DNA from: a virus | Reading direction: 5' to 3' (one strand) | DNA: 31,593 nt | Virus record (IMG/VR): IMGVR_UViG_3300012931_000057 | Span: 1-31,593 of that record | In this document: one piece after another, positions 1,753 to 31,385 of the stretch | Layout: every line of letters begins with the position of its first letter | Position numbering within the stretch: the first letter of the stretch is position 1 | Made by a program: the position numbers and the translations under genes | Notes under the pieces: model-generated | What the model was told of the DNA's origin: nothing | The model's database searches: none | What the model saw: only the letters and a program-made list of their open reading frames with translations

Positions 1753-1769
1753 TGTAACAATTTGTTACA
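1753..1769. promoter_or_regulatory. Recurrent intergenic palindrome, copy 1
   Basis: Exact TGTAACAATTTGTTACA, two perfect 8-base arms around a single central base. It lies between the stop of the 109-residue virion gene and the Shine-Dalgarno of the adaptor gene, with its last base 11 bases from the ATG. Flanking A and T extend the symmetry to 19 bp. It is one of seven related sites in the window and a likely protein-binding operator. Confidence 0.8.
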
Positions 1770-1779
1770 TAGGTGATAT

Positions 1780-2484
1780 ATGGGTACCTTAACATTCAGT
1801 CAGATACAAAACGAGGTACGCTTTGGATTAGGCGGGCGGGTAGATTTTGATACCCGCCTTCCATATATTATCAATCTCGCACAGCAGCGTTTAGCTCGTA
1901 TTCATGACTATGATGAGATGGAAGTCATCAGTACGACAGTAACTCAGAATACAGGAAGTGTTAATGATAAGTACCTTACTCTACCAAACAAGCGTGAGGT
2001 CTTTTCAATAGTTCTTCTCGATGGCCCGAACTCCAGAAAGCTTGTGCAGCGTACACCGCAGTTCTGGGATAGGCGAGTTCCAATGCCTGAGTACTGGGCA
2101 CGTGATAGAGTTCAAGATTACATAACTTGGGGCAATATTGTAGAACTTTGGCCTCTTCCAAATGCGAACTATACACTTCGTATGCGTTGGAGTCAGTGGC
2201 CAAATGACCTTGTAAATGCGGGCGACACTTCACAATTCATGCAAAAAGATGAACTTCTTATCGAGCTAGCTCTTATATATTGCTACAATAGTCTTGGTAA
2301 AGAAGATGAGGCTGCAAAGCACACAGCGCATCTAAACAGACTGATGAGTGAGGCCCAGCAAAAAGATGATACCAAGCCTGACCTTAATATTCTGCCTAGT
2401 GCTAGTGATGCACAGGTGTTACAAGATGGAGGTCTTGGAAGTACTCCATGGATTGACCCATTTATTAGGAGTACAAACTCATGA
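1780..2484 (+). CDS. Head-tail adaptor protein, SU10 adaptor-like
   Basis: This 234-residue protein probably forms the ring connecting portal and tail in a short-tailed phage. It begins 'MGTLTFSQIQNEVRFGLGGR', followed by helices ('YIINLAQQRLARIHDY'), a central beta segment around 'LTLPNKREVFSIVLLDG' and 'NIVELWPLPNANYTLRMRW', and a C-terminal helix pair ('ELLIELALIYCYNSLGKEDEAAKH'). This arrangement matches the SU10-type adaptor family as I know it. It is preceded by AGGTGA and by palindrome copy 1. Assignment is by pattern memory without a search, but its position after the head genes supports it. Confidence 0.65.
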   Translation: MGTLTFSQIQNEVRFGLGGRVDFDTRLPYIINLAQQRLARIHDYDEMEVISTTVTQNTGSVNDKYLTLPNKREVFSIVLLDGPNSRKLVQRTPQFWDRRVPMPEYWARDRVQDYITWGNIVELWPLPNANYTLRMRWSQWPNDLVNAGDTSQFMQKDELLIELALIYCYNSLGKEDEAAKHTAHLNRLMSEAQQKDDTKPDLNILPSASDAQVLQDGGLGSTPWIDPFIRSTNS

Positions 2485-2654
2485 GTAGCCAGTATGTAAA
2501 TACAGTGCCGACTACGTGGGTATCTGCTCCTACAATCGACACAACCATTATTCCAAATGTTCCAGTTACATTGTTAGTAATCTGGGATGCTGGATATGTA
2601 GTTCCAGTATCTTCAACTACATGGGATAGCGGTACAGCAAATTGGAAAGGCTAG
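2481..2654 (+). CDS. Short virion-module protein, 57 residues
   Basis: A short open frame starts at an ATG overlapping the adaptor stop in an ATGA arrangement and ends two bases before the ATG of the next gene. The protein starts MSSQYVNTVPTTWVSAPTID and contains two similar Trp-centred segments ('TTWVSAP' and 'TTWDSGTANW'). The exact four-base overlap and snug fit are typical of a real translationally coupled phage gene. Function is unknown; a small virion component is likely. Confidence 0.6.
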   Translation: MSSQYVNTVPTTWVSAPTIDTTIIPNVPVTLLVIWDAGYVVPVSSTTWDSGTANWKG

Positions 2655-2655
2655 C

Positions 2656-3789
2656 ATGGCATCGAATATAGACCCAACAAAACCAACAGCTGCTAATCCA
2701 CTAACTGTGGATGTGCGAACTAACTTTGCAACAGCTGCGGCAGAGATTACAGCCGTTCAGGCTGCCATTAGCAATGTACAGAATCAATCCTTCGCTGTTG
2801 GTATTCCTGCTGCTATAGTTGCTGCTGCAAATAAGGCTACACCGGCTGCTGCTGATCTTTTTGCGATGACTGATAGTGCAGCTAGCAATGCTTTAAAGAA
2901 TATATCATGGACGAATTTGACAGCTGCAATGAAGCTTGCGCTAACACCTGTATTCGACACAGCACAAGATTTTCGTCTCACTGTAGTTAGCAGCATTGCA
3001 GTTCCTGTTGTTGATACAGTAGGAGCTACAACAATATACTGTACTCCATATATAGGAAATAATATTGCACTATATACTGGAGCTAATTGGGTTATAGACA
3101 CATCAGCTGAGTTTTCTATTGCGCTTTCTGGATTAACTCCAGGCTTGCCATACGATATATTCTGCTATGATGTTGCTGGAGTTCCAACACTTACTTATCA
3201 GGCGTGGTTAAATGGGACGACTCGACTGGTTAATCTCGGTCTTGTGAGTGGTGTGTATGTGAAGTCTGGCGATGCAACTCGACGGTATCTTGGAACTTTT
3301 GTAGCTACATCAGCTACGACAACAGAAGATAGTATTGCAAATAGATACGTGTGGAACTACTATAATAGAGTTCACAGGTACATGGAACGTCATGAGGTTG
3401 CAGCTACATGGAATTACACTACGGCAACAATTAGACAGGCAAATGCAAACACAGCGAATCAATTGAACTTTGTAATTGGAGTGCAGGAAGAAGCTCTTCA
3501 AGCAACGCTTGTTGCCCTAGCACAGAATACAAATACAGGTGTTACAGTTGCTGTAGGTATTGGTCTAGATTCTACTACTGCTATTGCAGCTGATGCCATT
3601 GCAGTTCCAGCAACGACGGCTATAGCTAATGGCTACGTTCCACTGATTGCACCATACTACTCCTTTATGTCGCAAGGTGTACACTTCCTAGCGTGGCTAG
3701 AATACTCAGCTGCAGTCGGAACAACAACATGGACTGGCACACCAACAACTATTATCAACGCTGGAATCATGGGAATCTTACAAGGATAA
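2656..3789 (+). CDS. Tail fibre / receptor-binding type virion protein
   Basis: This 377-residue protein is probably part of the tail fibre or spike. The N-terminal region (about residues 1-80) is Ala-rich and helical. The central region holds 'IYCTPYIGNNIALYTG', 'YDIFCYDVAG' and 'RRYLGTFVAT', then 'NRYVWNYYNRVHRYMERHE'. I recognise this as a module shared by many phage tail-fibre proteins. The C-terminal part is beta-rich ('VTVAVGIGLDSTTAI') and ends in a hydrophobic segment, as fibre tips often do. It lies immediately before the lysis genes, a usual place for tail genes. The exact fibre role is inferred. Confidence 0.7.
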   Translation: MASNIDPTKPTAANPLTVDVRTNFATAAAEITAVQAAISNVQNQSFAVGIPAAIVAAANKATPAAADLFAMTDSAASNALKNISWTNLTAAMKLALTPVFDTAQDFRLTVVSSIAVPVVDTVGATTIYCTPYIGNNIALYTGANWVIDTSAEFSIALSGLTPGLPYDIFCYDVAGVPTLTYQAWLNGTTRLVNLGLVSGVYVKSGDATRRYLGTFVATSATTTEDSIANRYVWNYYNRVHRYMERHEVAATWNYTTATIRQANANTANQLNFVIGVQEEALQATLVALAQNTNTGVTVAVGIGLDSTTAIAADAIAVPATTAIANGYVPLIAPYYSFMSQGVHFLAWLEYSAAVGTTTWTGTPTTIINAGIMGILQG

Positions 3790-3791
3790 TT

Positions 3792-3965
3792 ATGAGTGCA
3801 GAAGCTTGGATTCAACTTATTGCTACACTAATTGGCGTTGGTTCTGTATGGGGTGCTATCAGAGCTGATATAAAGAATATACATAATAGCCTGCATGAAC
3901 TCCGGCACTCAACAGATGACGCCCATCATCGAATAGATGAAATACTATTGAAAGGTCCAAAATGA
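3792..3965 (+). CDS. Small membrane-anchored protein, holin- or XhlA-like
   Basis: A 57-residue protein with a hydrophobic N-terminal segment (about residues 4-24, 'AWIQLIATLIGVGSVWGAI') followed by a charged amphipathic helix with heptad-like spacing ('IKNIHNSLHELRHSTDDAHHRIDEI'). Single-membrane-segment plus coiled-coil proteins of this size occur next to lysis genes, for example XhlA-type haemolysin accessory proteins. An upstream in-frame extension is open back to 3693, but ATG 3792 follows the fibre stop by two bases and is the sensible start. The stop overlaps the next start (ATGA). A lysis role is inferred from context. Confidence 0.6.
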   Translation: MSAEAWIQLIATLIGVGSVWGAIRADIKNIHNSLHELRHSTDDAHHRIDEILLKGPK

Positions 3966-8330: not shown

Positions 8331-9137
8331 GTGGGAATTCTACAGGATATTAAAGGTTTCTTTACTGGAAGTCCTGCACAGATGCAGACTTTTGGAAACC
8401 TCAGTCCAGAACAGCAAGCGGCATTATCTCAGGTTCTACAACAGTTGACGAGTGGGCAGAACACTCAGGCATATGGCGGGCAGCTAACAGCGCCAGTAAA
8501 TCCTTTACAGCAAGCTTCTCTATCTGCCATGGAGCAAGCTGCTATGAGTGCTGCATCTCCAACGAGTGGGACAGCAACATCTACACAGGCTTTAACAGAT
8601 ATTATAAATGCAAAGCCACAAGACCTCACGTCGTATTTCAAGACCGCATTTGTTGACCCAGCAACAATGGCATTTGAGAATCAGGTAATGCCTGCACTAG
8701 AGGGACAATTCAAAGGTATGGCTGGATACGGGTCAGACTTTGCAAAAGCAGCCGGAACAGCAGCATCAACAGTTGGAACTAACATAGCATCTCAAGAAGC
8801 ACAGGCTGTGCAAGAAGCCCTAACCCGGCAGCAGGCTAATAAACTATCAGCTGCTACAGCTCTTCCAGGTGTTGCTACAGCAGATATACAGAATCTTCTA
8901 TCTCTGCAAGCTGGCGGTGGTGTAGCTCAAGCAACAGCACAGGCACCTTTATCAGCTGCATATTCAGAGTTCCAACGACAACAGCAGGCAAAGCAGATGA
9001 ACATTCAAGATATTCTTGCCGCTCTTGGTATCCAAACAAAGAGTCCAGTTGTTGTACCTGGACAGGCTGGATTCTTGCAAGGTGCTGCAGCTGGCGTTGG
9101 ACAGGCTGCAACTACAAAATTGCTTAGCAGTATGTAA
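8331..9137 (+). CDS. Internal virion / DNA ejection protein candidate (Ala/Gln-rich)
   Basis: A 268-residue protein starting at GTG, with AGGAG directly overlapping the previous stop. It begins 'MGILQDIKGFFTGSPAQMQT' and is dominated by Ala, Gln, Ser and Gly helices ('LSPEQQAALSQVLQQL', 'EAQAVQEALTRQQANKL'), with a Gly/Ala C-terminus. This composition, the lack of Cys, and the place before a Gln-rich protein and a giant protein fit the internal ejection-protein cluster of short-tailed phages. The last codons lie inside palindrome copy 2, which supplies the stop. Confidence 0.6.
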   Translation: MGILQDIKGFFTGSPAQMQTFGNLSPEQQAALSQVLQQLTSGQNTQAYGGQLTAPVNPLQQASLSAMEQAAMSAASPTSGTATSTQALTDIINAKPQDLTSYFKTAFVDPATMAFENQVMPALEGQFKGMAGYGSDFAKAAGTAASTVGTNIASQEAQAVQEALTRQQANKLSAATALPGVATADIQNLLSLQAGGGVAQATAQAPLSAAYSEFQRQQQAKQMNIQDILAALGIQTKSPVVVPGQAGFLQGAAAGVGQAATTKLLSSM

Positions 9138-9149
9138 CAATTTGTTACA
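9133..9149. promoter_or_regulatory. Recurrent intergenic palindrome, copy 2
   Basis: Exact TGTAACAATTTGTTACA. It contains the TAA stop codon of the upstream internal virion gene and ends 11 bases before the ATG of the next, just ahead of its AAGGA site. The sequence and the distance to the start match copy 1, in the same strand context. Confidence 0.8.
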
Positions 9150-9160: not shown

Positions 9161-10240
9161 ATGGCTCAAGTTATATATATGCCCCCAAGTCCCAGTGTTG
9201 GTGAAGCACTAGGTCAGGGATTTGGGTCTGTACTTATGCTGCATATGCATCGGCAGCAACAGCAGAAAGAAGTTCAACAAATGCAGATGCTTCAGAGTTC
9301 TGTAGAGCAAGCTGTGCAATCTGGCGGCAGGCAGGCTGGCTTGGAGATAATGAATAAGATTCCATATAAAACTCTTGACCAGTATCAAAAAGGCATGCAG
9401 TGGTTTAATACTATATCTCCACCAAAGGATTTGACTCCACGCGAAGTATCTACATTCGACCCGCAGACTGGGCAGGAAACAAAGCAGTTTGTTCGCACAG
9501 GAGACTTGACAAAGTTTAGTGCGGCTGCACAGCAAGCCGGGCAGACTCTTGCAAAGCCAGATGTTACAGATTTCTATTCCTTAGGACCTGGTGGCACATA
9601 CCAGAATCTTGGGCGTGCACCTGTAACAAATCGTCCTCCTGGAAGTCATACCTTGGAGGAGCTTAAGCTTGTTGAGCAGCAACGAACAGACCAGCTAAAA
9701 CTTGAGGCTGCAAATCGCTCCGAGCGCAAGTTTCAATTTGCCATGGATAAACTTGCAGAGAGCAAGGACAAGCAGGAAGCATCAAAACAGATGACAGAGA
9801 TGAAAGCTTACAATGGTGTTGTCAGTTCCATGCTGAATGTTAAGAAGTCCATAGGAATGAATGGGGAGATTATTCTGGACTTTGGTGGGGATAGCAAGAA
9901 GGCTGATGCATATAGGGAAGCTTTAACTAAAGGTTCGGAGTATCTAGCAAAATATAAAGGAGATATAAACAAAGCTGCCTCAGAAGCTCTTAGTGCCTCT
10001 GGTGCCTTTGACCAGCCTATGCCAGAGGCTCCAACTGCAGCTCCTGCACAGCAAGAGGGTGGCGCAATAACACGACTATATCAGGCACTCAAAGAACGAA
10101 TTACAGGCCAACCTGAATCGGCAGCAAAAGCTCCAGTTGCAAAAGCTCCTGCGCCAGTTTTTGATAAAGGCAAGATATATGTTGATGCTAAAGGAAATCG
10201 TGCAAAGTATCTTGGTAACAATAAGTGGGAAAATCTATAA
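9161..10240 (+). CDS. Internal virion / ejection protein candidate (Gln/Lys-rich)
   Basis: A 359-residue, largely helical protein. It starts 'MAQVIYMPPSPSVGEALGQG', continues with a Gln-rich coiled-coil-like stretch ('HRQQQQKEVQQMQMLQSSVEQ') and a Lys/Glu helix region around residues 165-215, then a low-complexity Ala/Pro linker and a small C-terminal domain ('GKIYVDAKGNRAKYLGNNKWENL' in part). It has no Cys or membrane segment. It overlaps the giant gene by one base (TAATG), suggesting co-translation with it as part of the ejectosome. Function is inferred from composition and position. Confidence 0.6.
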   Translation: MAQVIYMPPSPSVGEALGQGFGSVLMLHMHRQQQQKEVQQMQMLQSSVEQAVQSGGRQAGLEIMNKIPYKTLDQYQKGMQWFNTISPPKDLTPREVSTFDPQTGQETKQFVRTGDLTKFSAAAQQAGQTLAKPDVTDFYSLGPGGTYQNLGRAPVTNRPPGSHTLEELKLVEQQRTDQLKLEAANRSERKFQFAMDKLAESKDKQEASKQMTEMKAYNGVVSSMLNVKKSIGMNGEIILDFGGDSKKADAYREALTKGSEYLAKYKGDINKAASEALSASGAFDQPMPEAPTAAPAQQEGGAITRLYQALKERITGQPESAAKAPVAKAPAPVFDKGKIYVDAKGNRAKYLGNNKWENL

Positions 10241-13200
10241 TGCCCTTCGACCCTGATTCAGCTAAGCTAGTAGATGTACCAAATGAGTTTGACCCAGGTA
10301 CAGCTAAGCCTGTAAGCATGGCTGCAAAAGCTGCTGGGCAGGTTCTTTCTATTCCCAGTCGGATAAAAGAACAAACACTTGCACTTGCACAGCAACCAGG
10401 TGCCGGCTTATATGGTCTTGGGTCACAGGCTATAGCTGGAAATATGGCACTGTTTGAAGCTGCAATTAAGTCTGGTGGAGATAAAGTTGCAGGGAAAAGT
10501 TTTGGAGAACGGTTCTCTGAAGAGTATGATAAAAACTATGCTCATCTTTCTGAACTGTATCATCCGCCCACACCAGCTGGCCAGCAGATGACAGCTAATA
10601 TCAATGAGTTTCTGGATAAGGTTGTTAGTGGACTTGGTGATGTTGCCTTCAAAGAACAGAAATACCAAGCTGAGACATATGCAAAGGAGACTGGTACCAA
10701 GCCAGTTATACCTGTTGAGAAGCAGGCTGCGGCAGCTGGTGCATTTACAGAAGCTCTTGCTACATTAGGTATTCTTACGGCGCCGGGGTTAAAAGGAAAA
10801 GGCGAAGTTAAGGCAGCGCCTGCACCAGTGTTAACTGGAAATGTTTTGTCAGATTTCGTTGCAAAGTATCCAGGAACCTATAGGCGAATGGAAGCTAGTC
10901 ATGTCGGTGATGCACCAGTTGCGGCTGCAAAAGCTGCACAGCCAGAAAGACACTTTGCTCGTATTGTTGAAGATGCAGTGAATAAAGAAATCGGACTGAG
11001 CAAATATCAGGATTTGGCCGAGCCACTTCTTAATATGGAAGGGCAGGCTAAAGTAACACTTGGAGATAAAATCAGACTCATTGTTCAGAAGTATGCTGCA
11101 CAGGCAAAGGAAACTATCCCAGCGCATGAACAAGTAGAGTATGCAAATACGCTAATTAAAAAAATCTTTGAACTCCAACAACAAGCTACGGCAGCAGAGC
11201 TTGCAAAGAAACCACTTGCACTTCCAGCGCCGAAACCACAAGTTGCTTTTGACGAACCTATCATAGTAGACCCTGCCGGGGTTGCAACTATCCATGCAAA
11301 ATACCGGGCTTCCTTAGACCAGATTGCTGAATGGCAAGGTACAACAGTCGACCCAACTGGAGTTGCCGGTCGTGAGATATTACAGAAGTACTATGGTGTG
11401 CCCAGAGGAGAACGATTAACTGAACGTGGAACGCCTGAGCGAAGAACACTTCGGCCAGAAGAAAAACGGTCTGGAATATTTAAGAAGCAGGCTGGTATCT
11501 TAGATATTGACCACCTCGCAGATAATATTGGAGCTATCAAGAACCTTGGAGAAGGTGTAACTAAATACATGCTGGCTGGCTTAGTTGACCCCCCATATGG
11601 TCTAGCTCATACAGCTAACGCGCGTGGAGATGTTACGCTCTTTCGTGTTGTTCCGAAGGGAGAGGATACAAGTCTTAAAGCTGGAGCATACCTTACAGCA
11701 GATAATAGTTATTTAGCATCCCGTGCTGCAGATGGAAAACAGGTTATCCAGCACACAGTTCCAGTTAAGCACCTTGTAGAGTCATCCCCTGGAAGTTATA
11801 TATACACCCCGCCTGGAACAGACCTTGGACCAGTTTTAAAATACCGAGATGGTGATGGCCGAGCTATTACGTTTGCAGACTTCTTACCTCCAGAATCTAT
11901 TAACCGCCCCGGCCTTAGAGGACAAAGCGGAGCAGTAGATATTACAGGGGAAACTCCATCAACTAATAGACCAACTACAAGCCTCCGTACAGATACTCTT
12001 ATGAGTATCCGAGCAAAGGATAGGGGAGATGCAGCCACACCAAAACAGCCTGGACGTTTAGCAGCTGTGCAAGAGAGCATTAAGCAGTATGGAATTAAAC
12101 ACCCAGTACAGGTTCTTATTAGCGACCAAGACCAGCTTGCATATCTTACAAATGGAAATCATAGAGTGTTAGCTGCCAGTAATCTTGGAATTGAAAGTGT
12201 GCCTATAAAGATTGAACATCAGGCTACACCCTTTACTGATGTGCAGAAATCATATGCTCGACCAGTTAGCGAACTTGGACTACAGGGTGTGAAGATTCAA
12301 AAGCCAACTACACCACAAAAAGGTGCAACCTTTGAAGATATGAAACGAATCTTCGGAAAGCATCAGCGCGGTGTATTAGATATAGATGGTATAGAAAAGA
12401 ATACGGAAGAAGCTAAAAAAGCTATTGTTCGAGCAACTGGAGCTGGATGGGCTGTAAGTAATCCTGAGGCGGCTGCACAGTATGTAAAAGATGTAATGAA
12501 TGGTAATGAAGTTGCGATGGAGAAAAATAGAAAAGTATTCAGTGACAACATTGTGAAGAAGGCTCGTCGTGCTATATATGCACATGACTATGATTTGAGA
12601 AAAGCCCTCCAAAATGCAGGCCCGTTGGGGCAAGTTGCTCATGATAGAATGGTTGTGCAGCATGGTGCGACTATGGCTGCGAAGGTAAAGATAGATGCTG
12701 TAAACAAAGATATTTTCAATCCGCTGAATCATGAAGATAGAATGGCACTAGATGAATTAACGCGCCTTCGCCGGATTGTGCAGATAGATAAGTATAAGGG
12801 AATAGGTGTTGTTCGGCATGAAGGTGGTATTACTGGTCCTATGGCTGGGGCTAGAATTAACCAGATGAAAAATGAACTAGGGCCTGATGCGTTTAATAAG
12901 TTGAACAATGCATCAACAAGTATTTTTGAAGAGCAGAAGATATTGCTCGATGAACTTAAAGACAATGGAGTTATTACTCCAGAACTCCATAAGAAGTTAT
13001 ACAACTTCGACTACACACGAACACAGTATCTTGATGCAATAGACCCAATGCTTCCTATAGCATCACATATTCATAACTTGAGAACTTCAGTTAGAAGTTC
13101 TGGAATTGCAACTCTTGGATATGGTAAGAAAATGGCAGTAAACATAAACTCCCAAGACTTACTCATTGAAGATATTGCACGGGTAGAGAATAGAATATTT

Positions 13201-15159: not shown

Positions 15160-15161
15160 GA

Positions 15162-15178
15162 TGTAACAATTTGTTACA
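15162..15178. promoter_or_regulatory. Recurrent palindrome, copy 3, at the convergent junction
   Basis: Exact TGTAACAATTTGTTACA, lying between the stop of the giant rightward gene and the end of the leftward genes. Its right arm contains the stop codon of the leftward 79-residue gene. It is the only copy not just upstream of a start codon; here the two transcription units meet. There is no T-run on either side, so it is not a classical intrinsic terminator. Confidence 0.75.
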
Positions 15179-15413
15179 AAGCTCGTTTTCCAAAATCATC
15201 TACTTTATGATAAGCTGATGGGTCTGATTCAAGTACGATTCCAGTAACTGTAACTACCAATCGTTGACCGGGGAGAACTTGGTATGGTATTCCTTGGGGG
15301 AAGGAAATAGGTAACCGATTGGACTGAGATAGGATTGCACAGTCTAGGGATACACAAACAGCTTTCGTTGTGCTGGCAAAGGTTTTTAGAACTTTCGTAT
15401 CTGTGCGTGGCAT
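15174..15413 (-). CDS. Small protein of unknown function, last gene of the leftward module
   Basis: A 79-residue protein starting MPRTDTKVLKTFASTTKAVC, with a beta-rich middle ('GIPYQVLPGQRLVVTVTGIVL') and a polar C-terminus. The ATG at 15413 has AAGGAG at good spacing, overlapping the helicase stop; an in-frame start 18 bases upstream lacks this. No family is recognised. The end of the gene lies inside palindrome copy 3. It is probably expressed with the helicase and polymerase genes. Confidence 0.6.
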   Translation of the reverse strand: MPRTDTKVLKTFASTTKAVCVSLDCAILSQSNRLPISFPQGIPYQVLPGQRLVVTVTGIVLESDPSAYHKVDDFGKRAL

Positions 15414-15415
15414 TA

Positions 15416-19144: not shown

Positions 19145-20454
19145 TATTCATCCTCAGTTTTATTTAACTTCTCTGTATCTTCCTGCACCGCCAGGAGGAA
19201 CTTATCCTTATATTCTGGATTAAGGTCATATCCCCAGCCCGTACAGCCCATGTTATACATAGCTCGTAGCGTAGCACCACTTCCCAGGAATGGAACAAGG
19301 ACGTGACTGTTTATACCGACAAAGGTGTCGATGAGTTCTTCTATCAAGGCTACTGGTCGTTCAGTTGGATGGTACTTTCTTGATGGAGCTACTGGCTCAA
19401 AGATAAATACATTAGGGCGACCACGCTTATTCAGCGCAGGCCTACCCTTACGGCATATAAAGAAAGGTTCATATGCTCTTGCCAAGTATGTCTCTGGGGA
19501 CAGAGTCTGTCCATGGCCTTTAGCCCAGATGCCGGGAATGTCATCTACTTCCCACTTAGCTTCCCGCAGTGCTTGTAGGACTATAGTGTGATGAGTAGGC
19601 CCAAACCAGAATACCATCCAGCAGTTGGAGCTGGCCAGCCGATACGTTTGCTCAGCAACTGTTTGAAGAAAATCTGCATATTCAGTTCTTGGAACTTCCT
19701 TATACGTTGTTGGCCTTTCACCAGTTCTATTCTTCTGTTCTGGAAGGTCAATTCCGTAAGGAGGGTCCACTTCAATGAAGTGGATATTTCCAGCACCATT
19801 CGGCAGAGCTTTCATTTCTTCCAGCGCATCGCCGATTTTGTAGTTACTCTTCGCAAGTTCAAGGACATTCTTTAATCCGGTGTCCTTAGTTACCTCCTGA
19901 CGCCGGCGTAGTTCGGCTGTGACAACTGCCTCTTCAAATTTCTTCAATGTCTTCAGAGCATCATCCTGAGTTGCGCACTTAGCAAGCTCTGGCATATCTT
20001 CCAGTGCATCAGCAAGCTGCAAGGAACGACTGACATTCATAGGGTGGCTGTGGCCAAGAAGCTTGGCAGTCTTCCTAAGACTCCAGTCTTGGTTCTTGGA
20101 CTTGCATAGCCTATCAATTTCAGCTATTAGCTTTGCTTGTTCATCCCAGGCGAAGTCCTTACGAAAGACATTTTCAATTAGTTCTACCTCTCGGCTATCG
20201 ACTGGGGCATCAGTATTATCTTGGTAACGCACCATAGCAGGGATTTGAGTAAGCCCAGCGAGGCGTGCAGCCGCAACTCTGCGACCGCCAGCAAGAAGCT
20301 GGTAGTCTTGATTCACAGTTATAGGCTGCAGTACACCCTTGTCCCTGATGCTGTCAGCAAGGTCAAGTATATCAGGAGATGTTGGAAGGATGTTTCTATA
20401 CCTATCTCCGATTGTGATATTATCAAGAGGGATGAAAAGAAGCGTGTTATCCAT
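19144..20454 (-). CDS. ParB-like domain / DNA methyltransferase fusion
   Basis: A 436-residue fusion. Residues 5-80 are a ParB N-terminal (Srx-like) domain with 'LADSIRDKGVLQPITV' and 'LLAGGRRVAAARLAGL' (56-68). Residues about 100-160 hold a ParB-type helix-turn-helix ('DWSLRKTAKLLGHSHPMNVS'). Residues 200-436 are a beta-order amino-methyltransferase: 'DPPYG' (230-234), 'HPTERPVALIEELI' (362-375) and 'PFLGSG' (388-393), probably N6-adenine. No restriction partner is seen, so it is an orphan enzyme for host-restriction evasion or regulation. The ATG at 20454 with AAGGTG is preferred over a GTG three codons upstream. It overlaps the upstream gene by 8 bases and the downstream one by one. Confidence 0.88.
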   Translation of the reverse strand: MDNTLLFIPLDNITIGDRYRNILPTSPDILDLADSIRDKGVLQPITVNQDYQLLAGGRRVAAARLAGLTQIPAMVRYQDNTDAPVDSREVELIENVFRKDFAWDEQAKLIAEIDRLCKSKNQDWSLRKTAKLLGHSHPMNVSRSLQLADALEDMPELAKCATQDDALKTLKKFEEAVVTAELRRRQEVTKDTGLKNVLELAKSNYKIGDALEEMKALPNGAGNIHFIEVDPPYGIDLPEQKNRTGERPTTYKEVPRTEYADFLQTVAEQTYRLASSNCWMVFWFGPTHHTIVLQALREAKWEVDDIPGIWAKGHGQTLSPETYLARAYEPFFICRKGRPALNKRGRPNVFIFEPVAPSRKYHPTERPVALIEELIDTFVGINSHVLVPFLGSGATLRAMYNMGCTGWGYDLNPEYKDKFLLAVQEDTEKLNKTEDE

Positions 20455-20692
20455 TACTATCACCTTTGAGTAGTTTTATTAAATCTGCCTTTTCCTCAGC
20501 ACTAAGGTTCTTTATCGCTTTGTCAACTTTGTTCCTCTGCTGATTAGTTTCTTTCTTCACAACTTCTTCTTGTCGCTTAACGGCAGCAGGGCGAACAACA
20601 GTTTTATTGTGTCGTATCTGACGAACGAACTCTCTTAGTTCGTCATCAGACATATTGCTAATGTCTTTGGTTATATCTGCGAGTCGCATCAT
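20447..20692 (-). CDS. Small charged helical protein of unknown function
   Basis: An 81-residue protein rich in Lys, Glu and Arg, with 'MSDDELREFVRQIRHNK' and a C-terminal 'KNLSAEEKADLIKLL'. The C-terminal helix closely resembles the end of the 113-residue protein further upstream in this module ('NMSKEEKAALLASL'), suggesting a shared small interaction motif. Its start overlaps the stop of the 58-residue gene (ATGA), and its end overlaps the methyltransferase start, so it is translationally coupled to both. A nucleic-acid or protein-binding role is possible but not shown. Confidence 0.65.
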   Translation of the reverse strand: MMRLADITKDISNMSDDELREFVRQIRHNKTVVRPAAVKRQEEVVKKETNQQRNKVDKAIKNLSAEEKADLIKLLKGDSNG

Positions 20693-20865
20693 AGCACCTG
20701 TGATTCATCACTAGGCCCGGCTTCCGCAACAACAAGTGCTACACGGCTATGCATATCTGGTTCATCAAGTTTATGCTCTTTAGCCTTACGGTCGAACTCC
20801 TCGCTTTCCAGAACAACTACATCCGTAAAAGCTCCTTGGCGAAGATATAAAGTTACTTTCATCAT
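20689..20865 (-). CDS. Small acidic protein, 58 residues, unknown function
   Basis: The protein reads MMKVTLYLRQGAFTDVVVLE at the start, then a charged helix ('SEEFDRKAKEHKLDEPD') and an acidic tail. Two adjacent ATGs are present; the first has CGGAG at good spacing. Its stop overlaps the next start. Palindrome copy 4 ends 12 bases upstream of the ATG, so this gene is the first of the ParB-methyltransferase and polymerase run. Function is unknown. Confidence 0.6.
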   Translation of the reverse strand: MMKVTLYLRQGAFTDVVVLESEEFDRKAKEHKLDEPDMHSRVALVVAEAGPSDESQVL

Positions 20866-20876
20866 GGCGTGGTCTC

Positions 20877-20893
20877 CGTAACAATTTGTTACA
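20877..20893. promoter_or_regulatory. Recurrent intergenic palindrome, copy 4
   Basis: CGTAACAATTTGTTACA, one base different from the consensus at the outermost position of one arm. In leftward transcription it lies directly before the GGAG site of the 58-residue gene, 11 bases between palindrome and ATG. It separates the SSB/Sak4 genes from the methyltransferase-polymerase-helicase genes. Confidence 0.78.
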
Positions 20894-20907
20894 ATCTATG
20901 TCCTTGT

Positions 20908-20929
20908 GGCAGGAGTTTTATCTCCTGCC
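20908..20929 (-). terminator. Stem-loop between SSB-like gene and palindrome copy 4
   Basis: Perfect 8-bp stem GGCAGGAG / CTCCTGCC around a six-base loop, directly after the SSB-like gene in the leftward direction. There is no T-run after it, so it may be a weak or factor-dependent terminator, or an mRNA stabilising or processing hairpin, rather than a classical intrinsic terminator. Confidence 0.5.
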
Positions 20930-20948
20930 CCTTGTGTGGAGCTAATTG

Positions 20949-21341
20949 TTACTCACTTGGCAAGCGGTCAAGGTTCAGACGATTGTACACTGCGCCGTTC
21001 GCATCAGGCTCAGTCAATGTCACTTGCACGTTCGCCCGTGAGCCGGCAAGGTCTTCAATGTTGAAACCAGAAGCTTCATCATAAGGGATGGAGAACTGCA
21101 CCAAGAACCTTTTGAGGAACAGCTTCTTGAAGCCAACCTTTCCAGCATCATCATCAGGCTTTGGAAGAGATATGAAGTGCCGGATGTTCGGAGCATCTGA
21201 CTCATGCCCATCAATGCCAATACTTACATCTATATCCCCCTTGTCTTCACGATACTCAGCACGTGCAATCGTGAGGTCATAACGCCCAGCTGCGACAGGC
21301 TTCGGTTCGACAGTGCCACCTAAATCCATATTGATAAACAT
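20949..21341 (-). CDS. Probable ssDNA-binding protein (phage SSB-like)
   Basis: A 130-residue protein of the small beta-barrel type often found beside Sak4 ATPases. It shows 'PVAAGRYDLTIARAEYRED' at the N-terminus, a central 'GFKKLFLKRFLVQFSIP' and a C-terminal 'DLAGSRANVQVTLTEPD' then 'YNRLNLDRLP', a layout I associate with DUF669-like phage recombination and SSB proteins. GGAG precedes the ATG. It would coat single-stranded DNA during replication and recombination by its neighbours. The family assignment is moderate, without a search. Confidence 0.6.
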   Translation of the reverse strand: MFINMDLGGTVEPKPVAAGRYDLTIARAEYREDKGDIDVSIGIDGHESDAPNIRHFISLPKPDDDAGKVGFKKLFLKRFLVQFSIPYDEASGFNIEDLAGSRANVQVTLTEPDANGAVYNRLNLDRLPSE

Positions 21342-21366
21342 ATGTAGTTACTCCGTATTAAGTTAG

Positions 21367-21396
21367 GAGCTTTCGCTCAAAGGGGTGCAACGCACC
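21367..21396 (-). other. Two small stem-loops between Sak4-like and SSB-like genes
   Basis: On the leftward transcript the gap contains GGTGC-GTT-GCACC followed by GAGC-GAAA-GCTC; the second has a GNRA-type GAAA tetraloop. Both lie upstream of the SSB-like start. They may be mRNA stabilising or processing elements; stems of 5 and 4 bp are short, so chance cannot be excluded. Confidence 0.4.
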
Positions 21397-21419
21397 TTAT
21401 GCAGCAGTTGTATCTTATT

Positions 21420-22217
21420 TCATAGTACGCTCCTTGAAAGAATTCTTCCCAATCCCTGTCCACTTAAAGGCTTCTTCCAGTCTATTGTAACATCTTCAGA
21501 TGGATTCAACCCTTTGATGCTGCACCTTATAGTCGGTGTTCGTCTATCGCTTACAGTTTGAATGGAGTAAGTTATCTTTCCCTTTCCATCATTGTGGCTA
21601 TCAGTTGCAAATATATCGCTGAATATTAAGGGAATCTTATCTTTCAACTTCCCCGTCATAATAGGCATACGATAGATAGATTGGCTGAGTTCATCTTTCT
21701 CCAGCGACAAGTGACCTGTTACGTACAAGCCGCGACCCAAGCCGGCAAAGGTGCGAATGATAGATGTAAAGGTCATCATCTGTGGGCCATAGTCATCTTG
21801 ATGCGGCCAACTTCCAGGGCGACCATTTAGATTTAGTATCATATCCATGATAATGTCTAGGAGAGTTGTAGCACTATCAATAGCTATCCAATCATAGTTA
21901 TTGAAAAAGCCACTCTTGATTTTTGCCTCTGCATCTTGTTCCCACCTCTTATAGACCTCACTCGTGCTCTTTCCTGTCACATTAGAACCCTTTCCATCCT
22001 TAGCCAGGCTATGTACATCCATGCTTATTTTTTCAGGATAGAATTCTTCATAGTCTACATCATGCCCATGAAGGCTAAGCATAGCATTCGGGTCGAAGAG
22101 GTAGGCAAACTTCTTTCCCGGCAGTGTCAGGAATTGGGAAGTCTTCCCGCTGCCTGTACTGCCTAGTATTAAGAATAAATGCCGATTTGTGCCCTTAGCA
22201 TCCTTAGCATTAGGCAT
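21420..22217 (-). CDS. Sak4-like RecA-fold ATPase (single-strand annealing/recombination)
   Basis: A 265-residue ATPase with Walker A 'GSTGSGKT' (19-26), 'YLFDPNAML' nearby, Walker B 'DWIAIDSATT' (109-118) and a later 'GLYVTGHLSLEKD' segment. This is the pattern of phage Sak4-type recombinases, which act with an SSB in single-strand annealing. Neighbours fit: an SSB-like gene downstream and a RecB/Cas4-like nuclease upstream. The start overlaps the 47-residue membrane peptide by 8 bases. Confidence 0.82.
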   Translation of the reverse strand: MPNAKDAKGTNRHLFLILGSTGSGKTSQFLTLPGKKFAYLFDPNAMLSLHGHDVDYEEFYPEKISMDVHSLAKDGKGSNVTGKSTSEVYKRWEQDAEAKIKSGFFNNYDWIAIDSATTLLDIIMDMILNLNGRPGSWPHQDDYGPQMMTFTSIIRTFAGLGRGLYVTGHLSLEKDELSQSIYRMPIMTGKLKDKIPLIFSDIFATDSHNDGKGKITYSIQTVSDRRTPTIRCSIKGLNPSEDVTIDWKKPLSGQGLGRILSRSVL

Positions 22218-22353
22218 GGTAGTTACTCAGAATAAACTGACTGATGCGAGATGCTATGAATAGAAAACCAGTTGCAACCCAAGCAATTCCTTGGCCTATT
22301 CGTAGAAAGATTGTAGATACTCCAAGCAAGATGTGTGCTTCAAAAGTTGTCAT
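22210..22353 (-). CDS. Small membrane peptide, 47 residues
   Basis: The protein begins MTTFEAHILLGVSTIFLRIG and contains one long hydrophobic stretch ('GIAWVATGFLFIASRI'). The ATG has an excellent AAGGAG at 7-base spacing. The frame ends inside the start of the Sak4-like gene, which is typical coupling in this module. Function is unknown; it is one of several very short membrane peptides in the leftward region. Confidence 0.65.
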   Translation of the reverse strand: MTTFEAHILLGVSTIFLRIGQGIAWVATGFLFIASRISQFILSNYHA

Positions 22354-22368
22354 TGCTATCTCCTTCGT

Positions 22369-22710
22369 TTAAAAATCTGTAACTTCTGGATGGCGTTCTC
22401 TGCCAAGTTGGTTGCAAACAGTAAAGCATAGTAATACTGGTTTTTGAGTCTTGATATTCTCATGTATGCATTTTGAGAGTATTTCATACTTATCCTTCCA
22501 CATCTTTGTATTATCTTGAGATTTCTGTAGCTGCATTTGCCATTCAACTAAAACATGGTCTGGAACATTCCATACTTTCTCTGGCGCAGCTCTAGCATCT
22601 GCTACTAATACAACAAGAGAGCCTGCAAGACATCCTACAATAAAGCTAATCCAAAATTGTCTAGTAAGCCCCCACAAGGACCGACTCAACCAGTATAGTT
22701 TGCTATTCAT
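22369..22710 (-). CDS. Membrane-anchored protein of unknown function
   Basis: A 113-residue protein with one N-terminal transmembrane segment (about residues 16-37, 'QFWISFIVGCLAGSLVVLVAD') followed by a soluble, partly helical region ('VEWQMQLQKSQDNTKMWKDKY') and a C-terminal part with three Cys. The ATG at 22710 is used because AAGGAG lies at suitable spacing, inside the stop of the upstream barrel gene. The layout resembles a spanin-type anchor but the context is not a lysis cassette. Unknown function. Confidence 0.6.
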   Translation of the reverse strand: MNSKLYWLSRSLWGLTRQFWISFIVGCLAGSLVVLVADARAAPEKVWNVPDHVLVEWQMQLQKSQDNTKMWKDKYEILSKCIHENIKTQKPVLLCFTVCNQLGRERHPEVTDF

Positions 22711-24906: not shown

Positions 24907-25140
24907 TTAGTCGAGACCATAGTAACGAACAACGCAGACCCACATCTCAGCATGGGCGTCAAAGTGCATAGGGCTTCTAGACGGAGAACGCATGGGGTCA
25001 ATCTGGGAGAGAATAGTATCAGTATACTTCTCCAAAGTACCCTTATCTGCTGAGATATACTCATTCTCATATATACGATTAGGTGCACCAGTATATAGTT
25101 CTTTGGAAAGAACTGGATAAGAATATTTAGAATCACTCAT
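24907..25140 (-). CDS. Small protein of unknown function, 77 residues
   Basis: The protein begins MSDSKYSYPVLSKELYTG and ends 'HAEMWVCVVRYYGLD'; no domain is recognised. GGGAG lies 7 bases before the ATG, and the start overlaps the stop of the Ala-repeat protein by four bases (ATGA). It ends four bases before the nuclease gene, so it is co-transcribed with it. A competing frame over the same bases lacks this ribosome binding site. Confidence 0.6.
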   Translation of the reverse strand: MSDSKYSYPVLSKELYTGAPNRIYENEYISADKGTLEKYTDTILSQIDPMRSPSRSPMHFDAHAEMWVCVVRYYGLD

Positions 25141-25841
25141 TTTGAAACTCCCATACTGTCTAAAATATCACAAAAATTAAGATATATATGCCCTGCCAAC
25201 GCAGCATACGCAGCATTCGCAGCATAAGCAGCATAAGCAGCAGCATTCGCAGCATACGCAGCATACGTAGCAGTCGCAGCATTCGCAGCATTCTCAGCAT
25301 TCGCAGCATCCGCAGCATCATAAGCAGCATACGCAGCAGCATTCGCAGCATCCGCAGCATACGCAGCAGCATTCGCAGCATTCGCAGCATTCTCAGCAGT
25401 CGCAGCATCATAAGCAGCATACGCAGCAGCATTCGCAGCATTCTTAGATCGGTCTACATTGGATAGCCAACTTTCAGCCCAAAGATTAAAATTGTACTCA
25501 TTATAAACTACCAGGGCACTGCGAATAGCAAATTCTATTTTCTGCTCTATACTTATAACTGGGAGCGGTAATTCTCGTTTAAGTGTTAATGCTTTGCACC
25601 AGCACTTACACTCATCAGTGCCTAGGTATGTATCTGTTTCTGCCTCAAAAAGTCTGGGATTGAGAAAATTGCTGTGTATAGGATTAAATATTACAGCAAG
25701 TCTGGGGTCAGCATAGGCGTGAATTACACCAGCTGAGCAAGGGTTATTTGATTTACCGAGAGCATGTGCCTTAACACCAAGTTCATACTGGAAGCTACAA
25801 TATGTGCTCATGCGTTCATCTGTTAACTTAAACAGTTTCAT
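25137..25841 (-). CDS. Conserved phage protein with long Ala-rich tripeptide repeat
   Basis: A 234-residue protein. Residues 1-132 form a compact domain of a phage family I recognise but cannot name functionally: 'MKLFKLTDERMSTYC', 'CSAGVIHAYADPRLAVIFNP', 'IHSNFLNPRLFEAE', 'WAESWLSNVDRS'. Residues about 133-214 are a low-complexity tract of (x-Ala-Ala) units with x mainly Asn, Tyr or Asp, broken by an extra Ala at intervals. A short tail 'IYLNFCDILDSMGVSK' closes it. The tract is probably a long helix with a stripe of polar residues, as seen in other members. AAGGAG precedes the ATG. Function unknown. Confidence 0.75.
   Translation of the reverse strand: MKLFKLTDERMSTYCSFQYELGVKAHALGKSNNPCSAGVIHAYADPRLAVIFNPIHSNFLNPRLFEAETDTYLGTDECKCWCKALTLKRELPLPVISIEQKIEFAIRSALVVYNEYNFNLWAESWLSNVDRSKNAANAAAYAAYDAATAENAANAANAAAYAADAANAAAYAAYDAADAANAENAANAATATYAAYAANAAAYAAYAANAAYAALAGHIYLNFCDILDSMGVSK
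25199..25443. repeat. Short tandem repeat (9-nt unit, GCAGCATNC-type) with 90-nt higher-order period
   Basis: About 245 bases are built from degenerate copies of a 9-base unit around GCAGCAT plus two variable bases. On top of this, a 40-base block at 25312-25351 recurs exactly at 25402-25441, a 90-base (30-codon) period. The tract encodes the (x-Ala-Ala) region of the leftward gene; because the unit is a multiple of three, several other frames stay open too, without being genes. Confidence 0.9.
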
Positions 25842-26421: not shown

Positions 26422-26438
26422 TGTAACAAATTGTTACA
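26422..26438. promoter_or_regulatory. Recurrent intergenic palindrome, copy 5
   Basis: TGTAACAAATTGTTACA, both arms perfect, with the central base A rather than T on this strand. It lies upstream of paralogue A, in the gap after the 113-residue gene. The central-base orientation is not tied to transcription direction, which argues for a symmetric DNA site. Confidence 0.8.
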
Positions 26439-29229: not shown

Positions 29230-29246
29230 TGTAACAAATTGTTACG
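29230..29246. promoter_or_regulatory. Recurrent intergenic palindrome, copy 6
   Basis: TGTAACAAATTGTTACG, one base from consensus at the outer edge. Its right arm contains the stop codon of the 160-residue gene and its left end is 11 bases from the start of the 39-residue peptide. The layout mirrors copies 1, 2 and 4. Confidence 0.78.
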
Positions 29247-29724
29247 TAGTTAGGTTACGAATCCGCTCTTCAAGATGCTGAAGTTCGGCTTCCTCAAGTA
29301 CAGACCAGTTTTCTATGTCTGCTACCTTTTTGCCTCGAAGTTCATTGAGGCGAACCTCCAGTCTGCTCCTTACTGGATATACATACGTATTATCCTGTGG
29401 AACTGGTGTAACAGGTTCTACCGCAGATACATCATTCACTAGTCTGCTGTACATATTTCTTTCTGCAATTTCTGTAACTGCAAGTTTCTTCGCATTTTGC
29501 CTCTTTTCCAACAGCGGCTGTACCATGGCACTATACTCAAAGCCATCTCTGTATGGAATAACTCCCATACGGCGGGAACTTTCCAACAGCCCGCGCAGGG
29601 CGAGACTAGCTATGAGACTTAAGCTCATATCATCTGAATATGCGCCTGCGCTTTTTAAGATGTCTATGCAACCCATAGCATCTTGTGGTGTCAGCCTCAT
29701 GCGGACGACATCTCCGTATTTCAT
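29242..29724 (-). CDS. Phage protein of unknown function, 160 residues
   Basis: A mostly helical protein: 'VRMRLTPQDAMGCIDILKSA', a central 'LIASLALRGLLESSRRMG', and a C-terminal charged coiled-coil-like segment ('EEAELQHLEERIRNLTT'). No family is recognised. The start overlaps the upstream Zn-finger gene stop (ATGA) with GGGGGAAAG as ribosome binding site. A DNA-binding or assembly role is possible but unsupported. Confidence 0.6.
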   Translation of the reverse strand: MKYGDVVRMRLTPQDAMGCIDILKSAGAYSDDMSLSLIASLALRGLLESSRRMGVIPYRDGFEYSAMVQPLLEKRQNAKKLAVTEIAERNMYSRLVNDVSAVEPVTPVPQDNTYVYPVRSRLEVRLNELRGKKVADIENWSVLEEAELQHLEERIRNLTT

Positions 29725-29948: not shown

Positions 29949-29949
29949 C

Positions 29950-30147
29950 TCACTGCCCTTCCATGTATCCAGGTAGGTTGCTGGCTATCATGGACACGAT
30001 GCCGAGTACCATGATAAAGATACCGACCGCCCATACCTTTTTCTCTACAGGGAGCTTTTGGTATAGGTAATAGCAGCCAAAAGCGACAATGATGAAAAAG
30101 GCTGTGGCTGCAAGGCCAATGAGTTGGAGGAATGCTAAGTTGCTCAT
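29950..30147 (-). CDS. Small two-segment membrane protein
   Basis: A 65-residue protein with two transmembrane segments ('LIGLAATAFFIIVAFGCYYL' and 'WAVGIFIMVLGIVSMIAS') separated by 'YQKLPVEKK'. AGGAG precedes the ATG. The size and layout would fit a holin, but the position in the early/replication side rather than the lysis cassette suggests another membrane role. Confidence 0.6.
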   Translation of the reverse strand: MSNLAFLQLIGLAATAFFIIVAFGCYYLYQKLPVEKKVWAVGIFIMVLGIVSMIASNLPGYMEGQ

Positions 30148-30158
30148 GATTTTTACTC

Positions 30159-30452: not shown

Positions 30453-30453
30453 T

Positions 30454-30738: not shown

Positions 30739-30755
30739 GGCTTTTGCTCATATTT

Positions 30756-31016
30756 TTAATAGAGAGGATTAACATACTCCTTGGTTTTCTTCCCTGATGC
30801 CTTGTCAATGCGGAAGATAGCCAAGTTGTGCCGTTCGGTTAAGGCCGTGGCAGCCTTATACGAAGGCGCGATTTTTGCAAAGGACGGCTGCATATCCAGC
30901 GTCACCAAGCCGTGGGCCTTGAGTTCAAATACCTTCGGCAGGTATTCCCAATGCTCCCGGCGGAGATATGGCATAGAGAATGCTTCGTCAATTTCTTTCC
31001 TGTTCAGTTTTTTCAT
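30756..31016 (-). CDS. Small protein of unknown function, 86 residues
   Basis: The protein begins MKKLNRKEIDEAFSMPYLRR. It has a basic helical N-terminus, a beta-rich middle ('FELKAHGLVTLDMQPSFAKI') and 'TERHNLAIFRIDKASGKK'. AGGAG precedes the ATG at 31016, preferred over an in-frame upstream start. No family is recognised. Confidence 0.6.
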   Translation of the reverse strand: MKKLNRKEIDEAFSMPYLRREHWEYLPKVFELKAHGLVTLDMQPSFAKIAPSYKAATALTERHNLAIFRIDKASGKKTKEYVNPLY

Positions 31017-31024
31017 GATTGCTC

Positions 31025-31207
31025 CTATACATAAAATTCCAGACATGGGGAATAATAAGTATTCTCCTCGTAGTCTGCTATAAGGTTTTCTGCTAATTGC
31101 ATAGCTTCATCCAGATCTTTGGCTACAACTATTCCAATATCATAAGATTTCTGGATGAAGTGCTCTGAGGAATCTAGCAGGGCTTTGGTATACCTAGCTC
31201 GTACCAC
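31025..31207 (-). CDS. Small protein with unusual start codon
   Basis: A GTG start gives 60 residues (MVRARYTKALLDSSEHFIQK...), with 'IGIVVAKDLDEAMQLAENLI' giving an alpha/beta pattern. However, the best ribosome binding site (AGGAG, 8 bases away) points to an ACG at 31219 in the same frame, which would add TTFV before VRARY and make a natural first strand. No ATG is available before the upstream stop. So the start is either the weakly supported GTG or a mutated or non-canonical ACG. Confidence 0.5.
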   Translation of the reverse strand: MVRARYTKALLDSSEHFIQKSYDIGIVVAKDLDEAMQLAENLIADYEENTYYSPCLEFYV

Positions 31208-31230
31208 AAAAGTTGTCGTGGTATTTACTC

Positions 31231-31338
31231 CTACAAAATGAGAATAACAGCCAAGATGACAAGGTCAATGCCTATGATAAGCGCATCGACCTTCTCATTG
31301 CTTAGATTTTCTACAAAGTGCCCAATATAGGCCCACAT
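31231..31338 (-). CDS. 35-residue membrane peptide, first gene of leftward module seen
   Basis: MWAYIGHFVENLSNEKVDAL followed by a hydrophobic stretch ('IIGIDLVILAVILIL') at the C-terminus. AGGAG with 7-base spacing precedes the ATG. Its stop contributes to the ribosome binding site of the next gene. Palindrome copy 7 lies upstream. Function unknown. Confidence 0.55.
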   Translation of the reverse strand: MWAYIGHFVENLSNEKVDALIIGIDLVILAVILIL

Positions 31339-31368
31339 GATAGTTCTCCTAATGATGGCCCGCGCCGG

Positions 31369-31385
31369 TGTCACAATTTGTTACA
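31369..31385. promoter_or_regulatory. Recurrent intergenic palindrome, copy 7
   Basis: TGTCACAATTTGTTACA, one base from consensus within one arm. It lies 30 bases upstream of the 35-residue peptide, the first leftward gene visible. It is the least perfect copy but keeps the positional pattern. Confidence 0.7.

Follow-up and report, generated by a model that had tools for sequence, protein, structure and literature searches.

RK2 carries about 12 OB sites, and we know of no methyltransferase in KorB, the protein that binds them. The OB site is 16 bp long, and KorB, a ParB-family CTPase clamp on a mobile element, acts from it on known promoters, its operators being able to act at more than 1 kb from a promoter (PMC11790492). 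The parS and NBS sites of ParB and Noc are 16-bp even dyads (TGTTTCACGTGAAACA or TATTTCCCGGGAAATA). The stoperators of phage L5 and Cluster A are 13 bp long and asymmetric (PMC9283540), predominantly follow transcription, number up to 30 per genome and are bound by the immunity repressor of a temperate phage; they are dispersed over the genome, with a consensus that drifts with the repressor among relatives (PMC6550527). Fusions of ParB with an N6_N4 methyltransferase are a frequent domain combination, commoner in phages than in bacteria and enriched in prophages, with a role that is so far a matter of guesswork (PMC12704722). The Bacillus cereus ParB-methylase BCE_0392 has the same two-part architecture; in E. 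coli it gave weak m6A with no target found (PMC3459991), and a nonspecific DNA-nicking activity has been attributed to it (PMC5512222). Our literature search, which was partial in depth, found no DNA site reported for any ParB-methyltransferase fusion, and no binding, CTP or methylation experiment for the fusion family described below.

The window analysed here is the whole stretch of 31,593 nucleotides, which is the entire IMG/VR record IMGVR_UViG_3300012931_000057, and the counts given for the window cover all of this record. Scanning for TGTAACAANTTGTTACA with up to three mismatches yielded seven matches, four perfect and three with one mismatch, and recovered at identical positions all seven TGTAACAA-N-TTGTTACA copies of a preliminary description, while dinucleotide-shuffled sequences contained 0.12 copies on average and at most one (100 shuffles). 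No strand is assigned to the sites. Site 1 (1753-1769, perfect) directly follows the stop codon of 1423-1752 and stands 10 bp before the ATG of the head gene 1780-2484, whose homologue is also preceded by a site in G001 (8685), G004 (1305) and L040 (3475), all of them contigs found through the motif. Site 2 (9133-9149, perfect) includes the stop codon of 8331-9137, and site 3 (15162-15178, perfect) occupies the convergent late/early junction of the two modules; G002 has a site at both of these junctions and G031 at the latter. Site 4 (20877-20893, one mismatch; junction also occupied in G002) is upstream of a leftward 58-aa ORF, 20447-20692 and the ParB-methyltransferase, UDG-exo, pol and primase genes. 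Site 5 (26422-26438, perfect) lies 28 bp before a minus-strand ATG, at a junction that holds a site in G002, G023 and G011 as well; site 6 (29230-29246, one mismatch) includes the stop codon of 29242-29724, and site 7 (31369-31385, one mismatch) is located 30 bp before a minus-strand ATG. Six sites thus precede an ATG by 10-30 bp (11-31 by the counting of the preliminary description), the seventh marks the convergent junction, and the central base was again seen to be independent of transcription direction. The claim that three copies supply a stop codon held for 9133 and 29230, and the stop codon at 15162 was found to belong to ORF 15174-15431 (minus strand), which has no homology support.

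Eighty-two related records were scanned and a strict site family was obtained in 35; among records of at least 20 kb it was present in 30 of 49, compared with 0 of 49 after mononucleotide shuffling. The usual dyad was TGTnnnAA-N-TTnnnACA with a genome-specific triplet (AAC, AAA/ACA, TCA, TCC, GCC, CCC or TTC), the copies within one genome carrying the matching change in both arms. It was a 17-bp odd dyad in most records with a family and a 19-bp one in G011. These sites resemble parS in being short palindromes with TGT as outer bases, but differ from it in the odd length, the free centre and the greater diversity of sequences. In the window and its relatives they were near-perfect dyads with a strand-independent centre, unlike the asymmetric, transcription-oriented stoperators, with which they share genome-wide dispersal and drift of the consensus. 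The palindrome also resembles the GlnR/TnrA box (TGTNA-N7-TNACA), a reading that was set aside because relatives have other triplets.

Records of at least 15 kb with and without the ParB-methyltransferase fusion were compared. An own dispersed dyad was detected in 25 of 27 near-complete records (at least 35 kb) with the fusion and in 2 of 5 without it (Fisher p 0.018), and in only 9 of 18 fusion-bearing records of 15-35 kb. No family was detected in G015 and G047, both of at least 35 kb and with the fusion, nor in G039/G040, which have the 'GG' helix mentioned below. The contig of G042 has nine sites and lacks the fusion, its UDG gene lying at the contig end. In three genomes with an early operon lacking the fusion (G010, G012 and G060) no TGT-type site family was found; G012 has a weak, different repeat in 3-4 copies. 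Outside the test set, Desulfofustis phage LS06 (helix 'KSSISRDL') has seven sites of the type TGTCCCAA-N-TTGGGACA (null maximum 2), or nine under a looser rule (null maximum 3), and the MAG contig L308 (helix 'PMNVSRALRL') has nnTAACAA-N-TTGTTAnn at a raw count of four. The contig scan of bacterial genomes yielded two contigs, both from one Pseudomonadota MAG. Selection of G001, G004 and G065-G069 was based on the presence of the window motif, and these records therefore give no independent support; the motif led to G002 and G003 too, which a primase scan also recovered. The sample excludes G019, the sequences of G041, G044 and G022 lack their last 3362, 631 and 88 bases, respectively, and G022/G023, G029/G030 and G001/G004 appear to be near-duplicates.

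Site positions were analysed in 21 records with clear families, using gene models with uncertain start codons. The junction between f52 and f53 holds a site in 10 genomes with seven palindrome types, that between AAA24 and g20949 in nine genomes and that between f34 and f35 in eight. Of the 21 mapped records 20 contain the fusion gene, and 18 of these have a site no more than 1.8 kb upstream of it, the exceptions being G011 and G023. Gene interiors were largely avoided: of 164 sites, 19 fell within ORFs supported by homology, where 113.4 were expected; in LS06, three of nine were inside annotated CDS. Junction type was assigned to 83 sites (70 tandem, 11 convergent and 2 divergent, compared with 582, 18 and 5 among all junctions), the other 81 of the 164 being set aside (69 with the neighbouring gene model more than 400 bp away, 12 at edges). 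At the tandem junctions the site lay at a median of 7.5 bp past the upstream stop codon. The convergent class differed from the tandem one at p 2e-6, most of its 11 sites representing one late/early junction across genomes. Spacing was more even than that of random gene junctions in 11 of the 12 genomes used for this analysis (p<0.05) and in LS06 (p 0.009), under a null without operon-length modelling.

The proposed binder is a 439-aa ParB_N-HTH-N6/N4 DNA methyltransferase fusion encoded at 19144-20463 on the minus strand, recognised by Pfam (PF02195, E 7.8e-14; PF01555, E 5.3e-18), by its sequence profile, which matches ParB/Noc/Spo0J chains and beta-class methyltransferase chains, and by a predicted structure with mean pLDDT 85. 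Its ParB_N and HTH parts align with ParB and Noc chains at E of about 6e-19, the Noc match spanning the HTH, and the family profile also matches KorB (8qa8, E 2.2e-5). By homologue alignment, ParB-CTPase Boxes I, II and III were located at 20317-20340, 20269-20295 and 20155-20184 (span 20155-20340, minus strand), with G43, R62, E97, N98 and R101 identical in all 60 covering homologues (62 aligned). These motifs predict a CTPase clamp like that of KorB, with the reservation that nucleotide specificity of ParB-CTPase folds is not reliably predictable from sequence (PMC12704722). The helix-turn-helix (residues 128-156, second helix 141-156; 19996-20082, minus strand) was placed by the best palindrome covariation and by model secondary structure, in which the helices are 129-136 and 141-156, and would read a palindromic site as in canonical ParB. 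Instead of the canonical ParB C-terminal dimerisation domain, the C-terminal half is a predicted beta-class N6-A/N4-C methyltransferase (19204-19785, minus strand; Pfam, profile, Foldseek and alignment) with FxGxG and a DPPY-type motif IV, DPPY being present in 57 of 62 homologues including the window protein; the top Foldseek matches include CcrM, M1.HpyAVI and the Adineta N4C enzyme. Megablast of 10225-22500 against phages gave no match, the related-locus search with the fusion alone as query gave nothing, and the 20 matches listed by plasmid tblastn (best 5000 records) cover only the methyltransferase half.

The palindrome was compared with the fusion by a sliding-window partial Mantel test in 33 genomes, with half-site consensus set by hand and those of G048, G024, G062, G055 and G009 resting on weak families. 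Among 209 fusion windows of 14 columns, the top six all fell within residues 128-152 of the HTH, and the best reached a partial r of 0.592 given whole-protein distance (window mean 0.064, sd 0.164). None of 2000 permutations of that window attained this value (maximum 0.362), a result uncorrected for picking the best among 209, and p-values are not independent because the genomes share synteny. The best window per protein was 0.60 for the fusion, compared with 0.40 for pol, 0.32 for PDDEXK, 0.28 for AAA, 0.26 for UDG and primase, 0.25 for the ribbon-helix-helix (RHH)-like protein (n=20) and 0.18 for g20949, so that no window of the seven control proteins exceeded 0.40. By eye, AAC pairs with 'M(N/T)V(S/T)R', AAA/ACA with 'MTVSNN', CCC and CCA with 'SAVA', and TCA mostly with the 'GG' helix. 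The covarying positions come after the G-x-S turn and align via Noc to a stretch whose first position is residue 173 of ParB, for which a role in specificity is proven (PMC7383237); this agrees with the specificity set just past the G-K-S turn in ParB and Noc; like Noc, the fusion family reads, on this evidence, a variant of the same site. The HTH predicted the inner triplet only moderately better than the rest of the protein did (nearest neighbour, exact in 15 compared with 12 of 33; mean bases right 2.24 and 1.91, random 1.42).

Since changes in the palindrome are matched by changes in the fusion's DNA-reading helix, the palindromes are very probably its landing sites, and we hold the fusion to be their binder with high confidence. 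The suggestion of a parS-like set for the ParB-methyltransferase is thereby strongly supported, by the covariation, the two out-of-sample genomes and the lack of a TGT-type family in three fusion-less genomes. Judged from sequence comparison, the palindromes are probably dispersed parS/OB-like loading sites specific to the phage's own fusion, and a role in clamp loading appears somewhat favoured.

A different function for the same protein would be that the fusion or its sliding clamps block elongation or initiation at transcription-unit boundaries, as at L5 stoperators or as KorB does at OB. We consider this unlikely, with points that speak for it: the sites lie at gene boundaries shortly past upstream stop codons and often close ahead of the fusion gene, the convergent junction would be insulated by a two-way block, members with a degraded methyltransferase retain their sites, and KorB, a ParB-family CTPase clamp, represses from distal OB sites (PMC11790492). 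Two threshold-level promoter-like matches overlap the sites at 9133 and 29230, but the window as a whole contains no more such matches than shuffled sequence does (31 vs 33.4; 32 vs 32.2), and sigma-70 promoters at the sites were rejected on this ground. KorB by itself is a weak repressor that needs KorA (PMC11790492), the dyads are unoriented, unlike stoperators, which predominantly point along transcription (PMC6550527), and integrases of two families were not found in 26 records, so that there is no clear lysogeny to maintain. The idea of a late/early switch likewise found no support, given the promoter-like matches at or below shuffle level and the recurrence of the convergent-junction site across genomes, and promoter-by-promoter switching in general fits less well.

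The small RHH-like protein (29242-29724), a phage-specific regulator for which the palindromes could be operators, was rejected as binder after its family had been built, modelled and fold-searched, since it shows no covariation and its occurrence does not match that of the sites; we regard it as highly improbable. Its homologues first surfaced in contigs of the palindrome scan, its gene is often near a site, and its N-terminus is modelled as extended-helix-helix (pLDDT about 90), but its best window is the low one given above, its N-terminal strand varies within the AAC group, and it was undetected in palindrome-bearing G011, G023, G041, G044, G059 and G063, whereas G010 and G060, in which no site family was detected, do have it. 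Fold searches gave no convincing PDB match, the window protein has no Pfam match, tblastn against phages gave none, and the related-locus search with these proteins gave nothing new. An extrachromosomal prophage with a partition (centromere) system is still harder to credit: the fusion belongs to the ParB family and the G056 half-site TGTTTCA is part of consensus parS TGTTTCAC-GTGAAACA, but the sites are dispersed along the genome rather than grouped at a single locus, none of 26 records yielded an AAA_31-type ParA (the control rings were detected in 14 of 14 genomes), and tyrosine and serine integrases were each found in 0 of 26. Least credible of all are RNA hairpins such as weak terminators or processing signals. 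The arms of eight site types can fold (MFE -1.9 to -9.0 kcal/mol) and symmetric arm change is expected of hairpins too and would not alone exclude them, but the AAA type reaches merely -1.9 kcal/mol, no T-run follows the window sites, and in many genomes the dyad is kept up to a 1-nt centre, one pair beyond the predicted hairpin. The HTH covariation, which a hairpin leaves unexplained, together with use on both strands and at convergent junctions, supports the original reading as a symmetric DNA site.

In the mechanism that we propose for loading sites of the fusion, a fusion dimer would read one palindrome through two HTHs, CTP would close it into a clamp, and the clamp would then move away from the site across the adjoining kilobases; in this way a few evenly spaced sites could let clamps cover the whole genome in cis. 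Sites after stop codons and in convergent junctions may reflect that a needed site does least harm there. The purpose would probably be to label phage DNA as self in lytic growth, or to protect or organise it as such, by methylation through the fused domain or by exclusion of other proteins. Methylation as the main output is a tentative and somewhat doubtful choice. The full combination is rather unlikely: a cis-acting sliding-clamp methyltransferase would enter the DNA at its own palindromes, be closed by CTP and then, sliding across the kilobases from site to site, methylate the encircled DNA. If true, a lytic phage would restrict its mark to DNA with landing sites of its own, and this self/non-self label would have an address, made up of palindrome and HTH, that diverges among competing phages.

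A virus would here be covering its own genome with a ParB clamp, provided that clamps do spread from the evenly spaced sites. The fusions gain a concrete candidate DNA site with at least seven natural site types and matching recognition helices, so that binding, CTP-gated loading and site-dependent methylation are now testable on short DNA duplexes, and G010, G012 and G060 provide natural absences. A further natural contrast is the clade of G025, G027 and L308, in which the methyltransferase is degraded (DPPF/DAPF/DPPL, about 45 residues missing) and the palindromes persist; methylation is therefore not the sole reason for the sites.

The seven copies of a 17-bp palindrome reported in the preliminary description were recovered at their positions (first bases 1753, 9133, 15162, 20877, 26422, 29230 and 31369) in the window, which spans the whole of an IMG/VR record (31,593 bases), and they are far above chance (0.12 expected, shuffle maximum of 1). 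The placement of all of them at gene boundaries was also confirmed: an ATG follows 10-30 bp downstream of six copies, and the copy at 15162 lies between the converging modules.

Related phage records (designated G0xx) were gathered via homology of DNA polymerase and primase, together with some contigs from a motif scan, and dispersed palindromes were sought without a preset sequence. At least three dispersed identical-arm palindromes were present in 35/82 records and, when only records of 20 kb or more are counted, in 30/49, compared with 0/49 shuffled records. Looser dyad clustering gave fuller sets, with 8 sites each in G003, G006 and G028, 9 in G005 and G056, and 10 in G029, G032 and G038. 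The usual form is TGTnnnAA-N-TTnnnACA, with the inner triplet AAC in the window, G002, G003, G025 and G027, AAA/ACA in G005 and G006, TCA in many records, TCC in G022/G023, GCC in G029, CCC in G032 and TTC in G056. G011 carries a 19-bp version and G041 an ATTC type, and the sites of G009, G024, G055 and G062 are further from the common form. Both arms carry the same change in all copies of a genome, apart from scattered one-base departures. The sites are real and are conserved as a system. In G005, sites of two neighbouring types (TGTAAAAA and TGTACAAA) occur together, as if this genome had been caught in the middle of a specificity change or had a relaxed helix. The ATTCNAA-N-TTNGAAT dyad of G041 reaches up to 16 copies, exceeding the other records.

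Judging from sequence comparison, the protein that targets the sites is very probably the phage's own ParB_N-HTH-methyltransferase fusion (HTH, helix-turn-helix; 19144-20463, minus strand), which varies closely in step with the palindrome. For every 14-column window along the entire fusion, a partial correlation with palindrome distance was computed, correcting for whole-protein distance. Of the 209 windows, the six with the strongest association all fell in the HTH, the best being residues 130-144 (partial r 0.592, 0/2000 permutations), while the peaks of the control proteins (polymerase, primase, UDG-exonuclease, AAA ATPase, PDDEXK nuclease, g20949 and a ribbon-helix-helix (RHH)-like protein) were at most 0.40. 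The HTH was placed at 129-136/141-156 in an AlphaFold model (pLDDT 85), and the covarying residues align, through Noc, to a stretch beginning at ParB position 173, a residue described as having a proven role in ParB/Noc specificity (PMC7383237). In the residues following the G-x-S turn, AAC sites go with M-N/T, AAA/ACA sites with M-T-V-S-N, TCA sites mostly with G-G, and the CC types with S-A. Nearest-neighbour prediction of the triplet was less impressive, being exact in 15/33 from the HTH and 12/33 from the rest of the fusion.

Genomes outside the set used for this comparison were also inspected as a check. Desulfofustis phage LS06-2018-MD01, the sole record among 98 matching phage records with a match over at least 80% of the fusion, has the helix KSSISRDL and seven to nine sites of the TGTCCCAA-N-TTGGGACA type, the same type as G032, whose helix reads KSAVAREL. 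The MAG contig L308 encodes PMNVSRALRL in its fusion and carries four nnTAACAA-N-TTGTTAnn sites. Among records of at least 35 kb, a site family was present in 25/27 with the fusion versus 2/5 without it (Fisher p 0.018); of these two, G042 ends before the fusion's place and G012 has a weak, different repeat. No TGT-type family was found in G010, G012 and G060, which have the early operon and lack the fusion. A family was present in only 9/18 fusion-bearing records of 15-35 kb, and none was found in the larger G015 and G047; some of these cases may be due to fragmentary records or to sites that have diverged.

The RHH-like protein (29242-29724, minus strand, 160 aa, without Pfam match), the first candidate binder, has homologs in 28/82 records, often close to a site. 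It was rejected because it went undetected in six near-complete palindrome-bearing genomes and is encoded in two that lack sites, and because changes in its strand do not follow those of the palindrome.

Using homology-supported gene models, sites of seven types were mapped to the f52-f53 junction in G003, G005, G006, G027, G028, G029, G032, G038, G056 and G023. Eight genomes hold a site at the f34-f35 junction and nine at AAA24-g20949, the latter junction lying upstream of the fusion gene. Homology-supported coding sequence contains 19/164 sites in 21 records, with 113.4 expected. Spacing is more even than that of random gene junctions in 11/12 genomes, and also in LS06-2018-MD01 (p 0.009). 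The 70 tandem sites adjoin the upstream stop codon at a median distance of 7.5 bp, and a site is present at 11/18 convergent and 70/582 tandem junctions, the convergent ones being largely one junction recurring in many genomes. Promoter-like sequence in the window was not above shuffles, although sites 9133 and 29230 do coincide in part with two matches at threshold level. Since the sites are evenly spaced, lie by stop codons and at convergent junctions and show no promoter-like excess, their placement reads more like landing sites for a sliding clamp than promoter operators. Such landing sites would be placed where they are least harmful, at intervals within the reach of the clamp. The conservation of CTPase Boxes I-III in the fusion homologs makes CTP-gated clamp closure plausible. 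The main rival to clamp landing is a transcription roadblock at the sites.

As for methylation, the methyltransferase motif DPPY is intact in 57/62 homologs. In the clade of G025, G027 and L308, motif IV is altered (DPPF, DAPF, DPPL) and about 45 residues are gone from the methyltransferase half, yet the clade retains the ParB boxes, the HTH and its DNA sites; therefore, methylation cannot be the whole story. Neither an AAA_31-type ParA nor tyrosine or serine integrases were found in the 26 records searched, which speaks against partition and integration-based lysogeny, respectively.

The fusion with its sites resembles ParB/parS and KorB/OB, but in an unusual setting. KorB is described as a clamp of the ParB family that exerts its effect from distal operators (PMC11790492), and stoperators as drifting phage-wide sites of an immunity repressor (PMC6550527). 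Phages are reported to carry ParB-N6/N4-methyltransferase fusions frequently, and roles in anti-defence or in phage-host relations have been suggested for them (PMC12704722); for one such fusion, BCE_0392, weak m6A activity and no identified target are reported (PMC3459991). No description of DNA sites for such fusions was found in the literature searched, in which subscription journals were mostly outside coverage.

Other features of the window were also recorded. Uracil-DNA-glycosylase and 3'-5' exonuclease domains are joined in one protein (18137-19144, minus strand) adjoining a family A polymerase. A DNA repeat of 9-bp period encodes a long Ala-rich repeat tract (NAANAAAYAADAA...) in the protein at 25137-25841 (minus strand). 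The right end of the record (31540-31593) consists of a T run followed by a G run, which is probably an assembly artefact.
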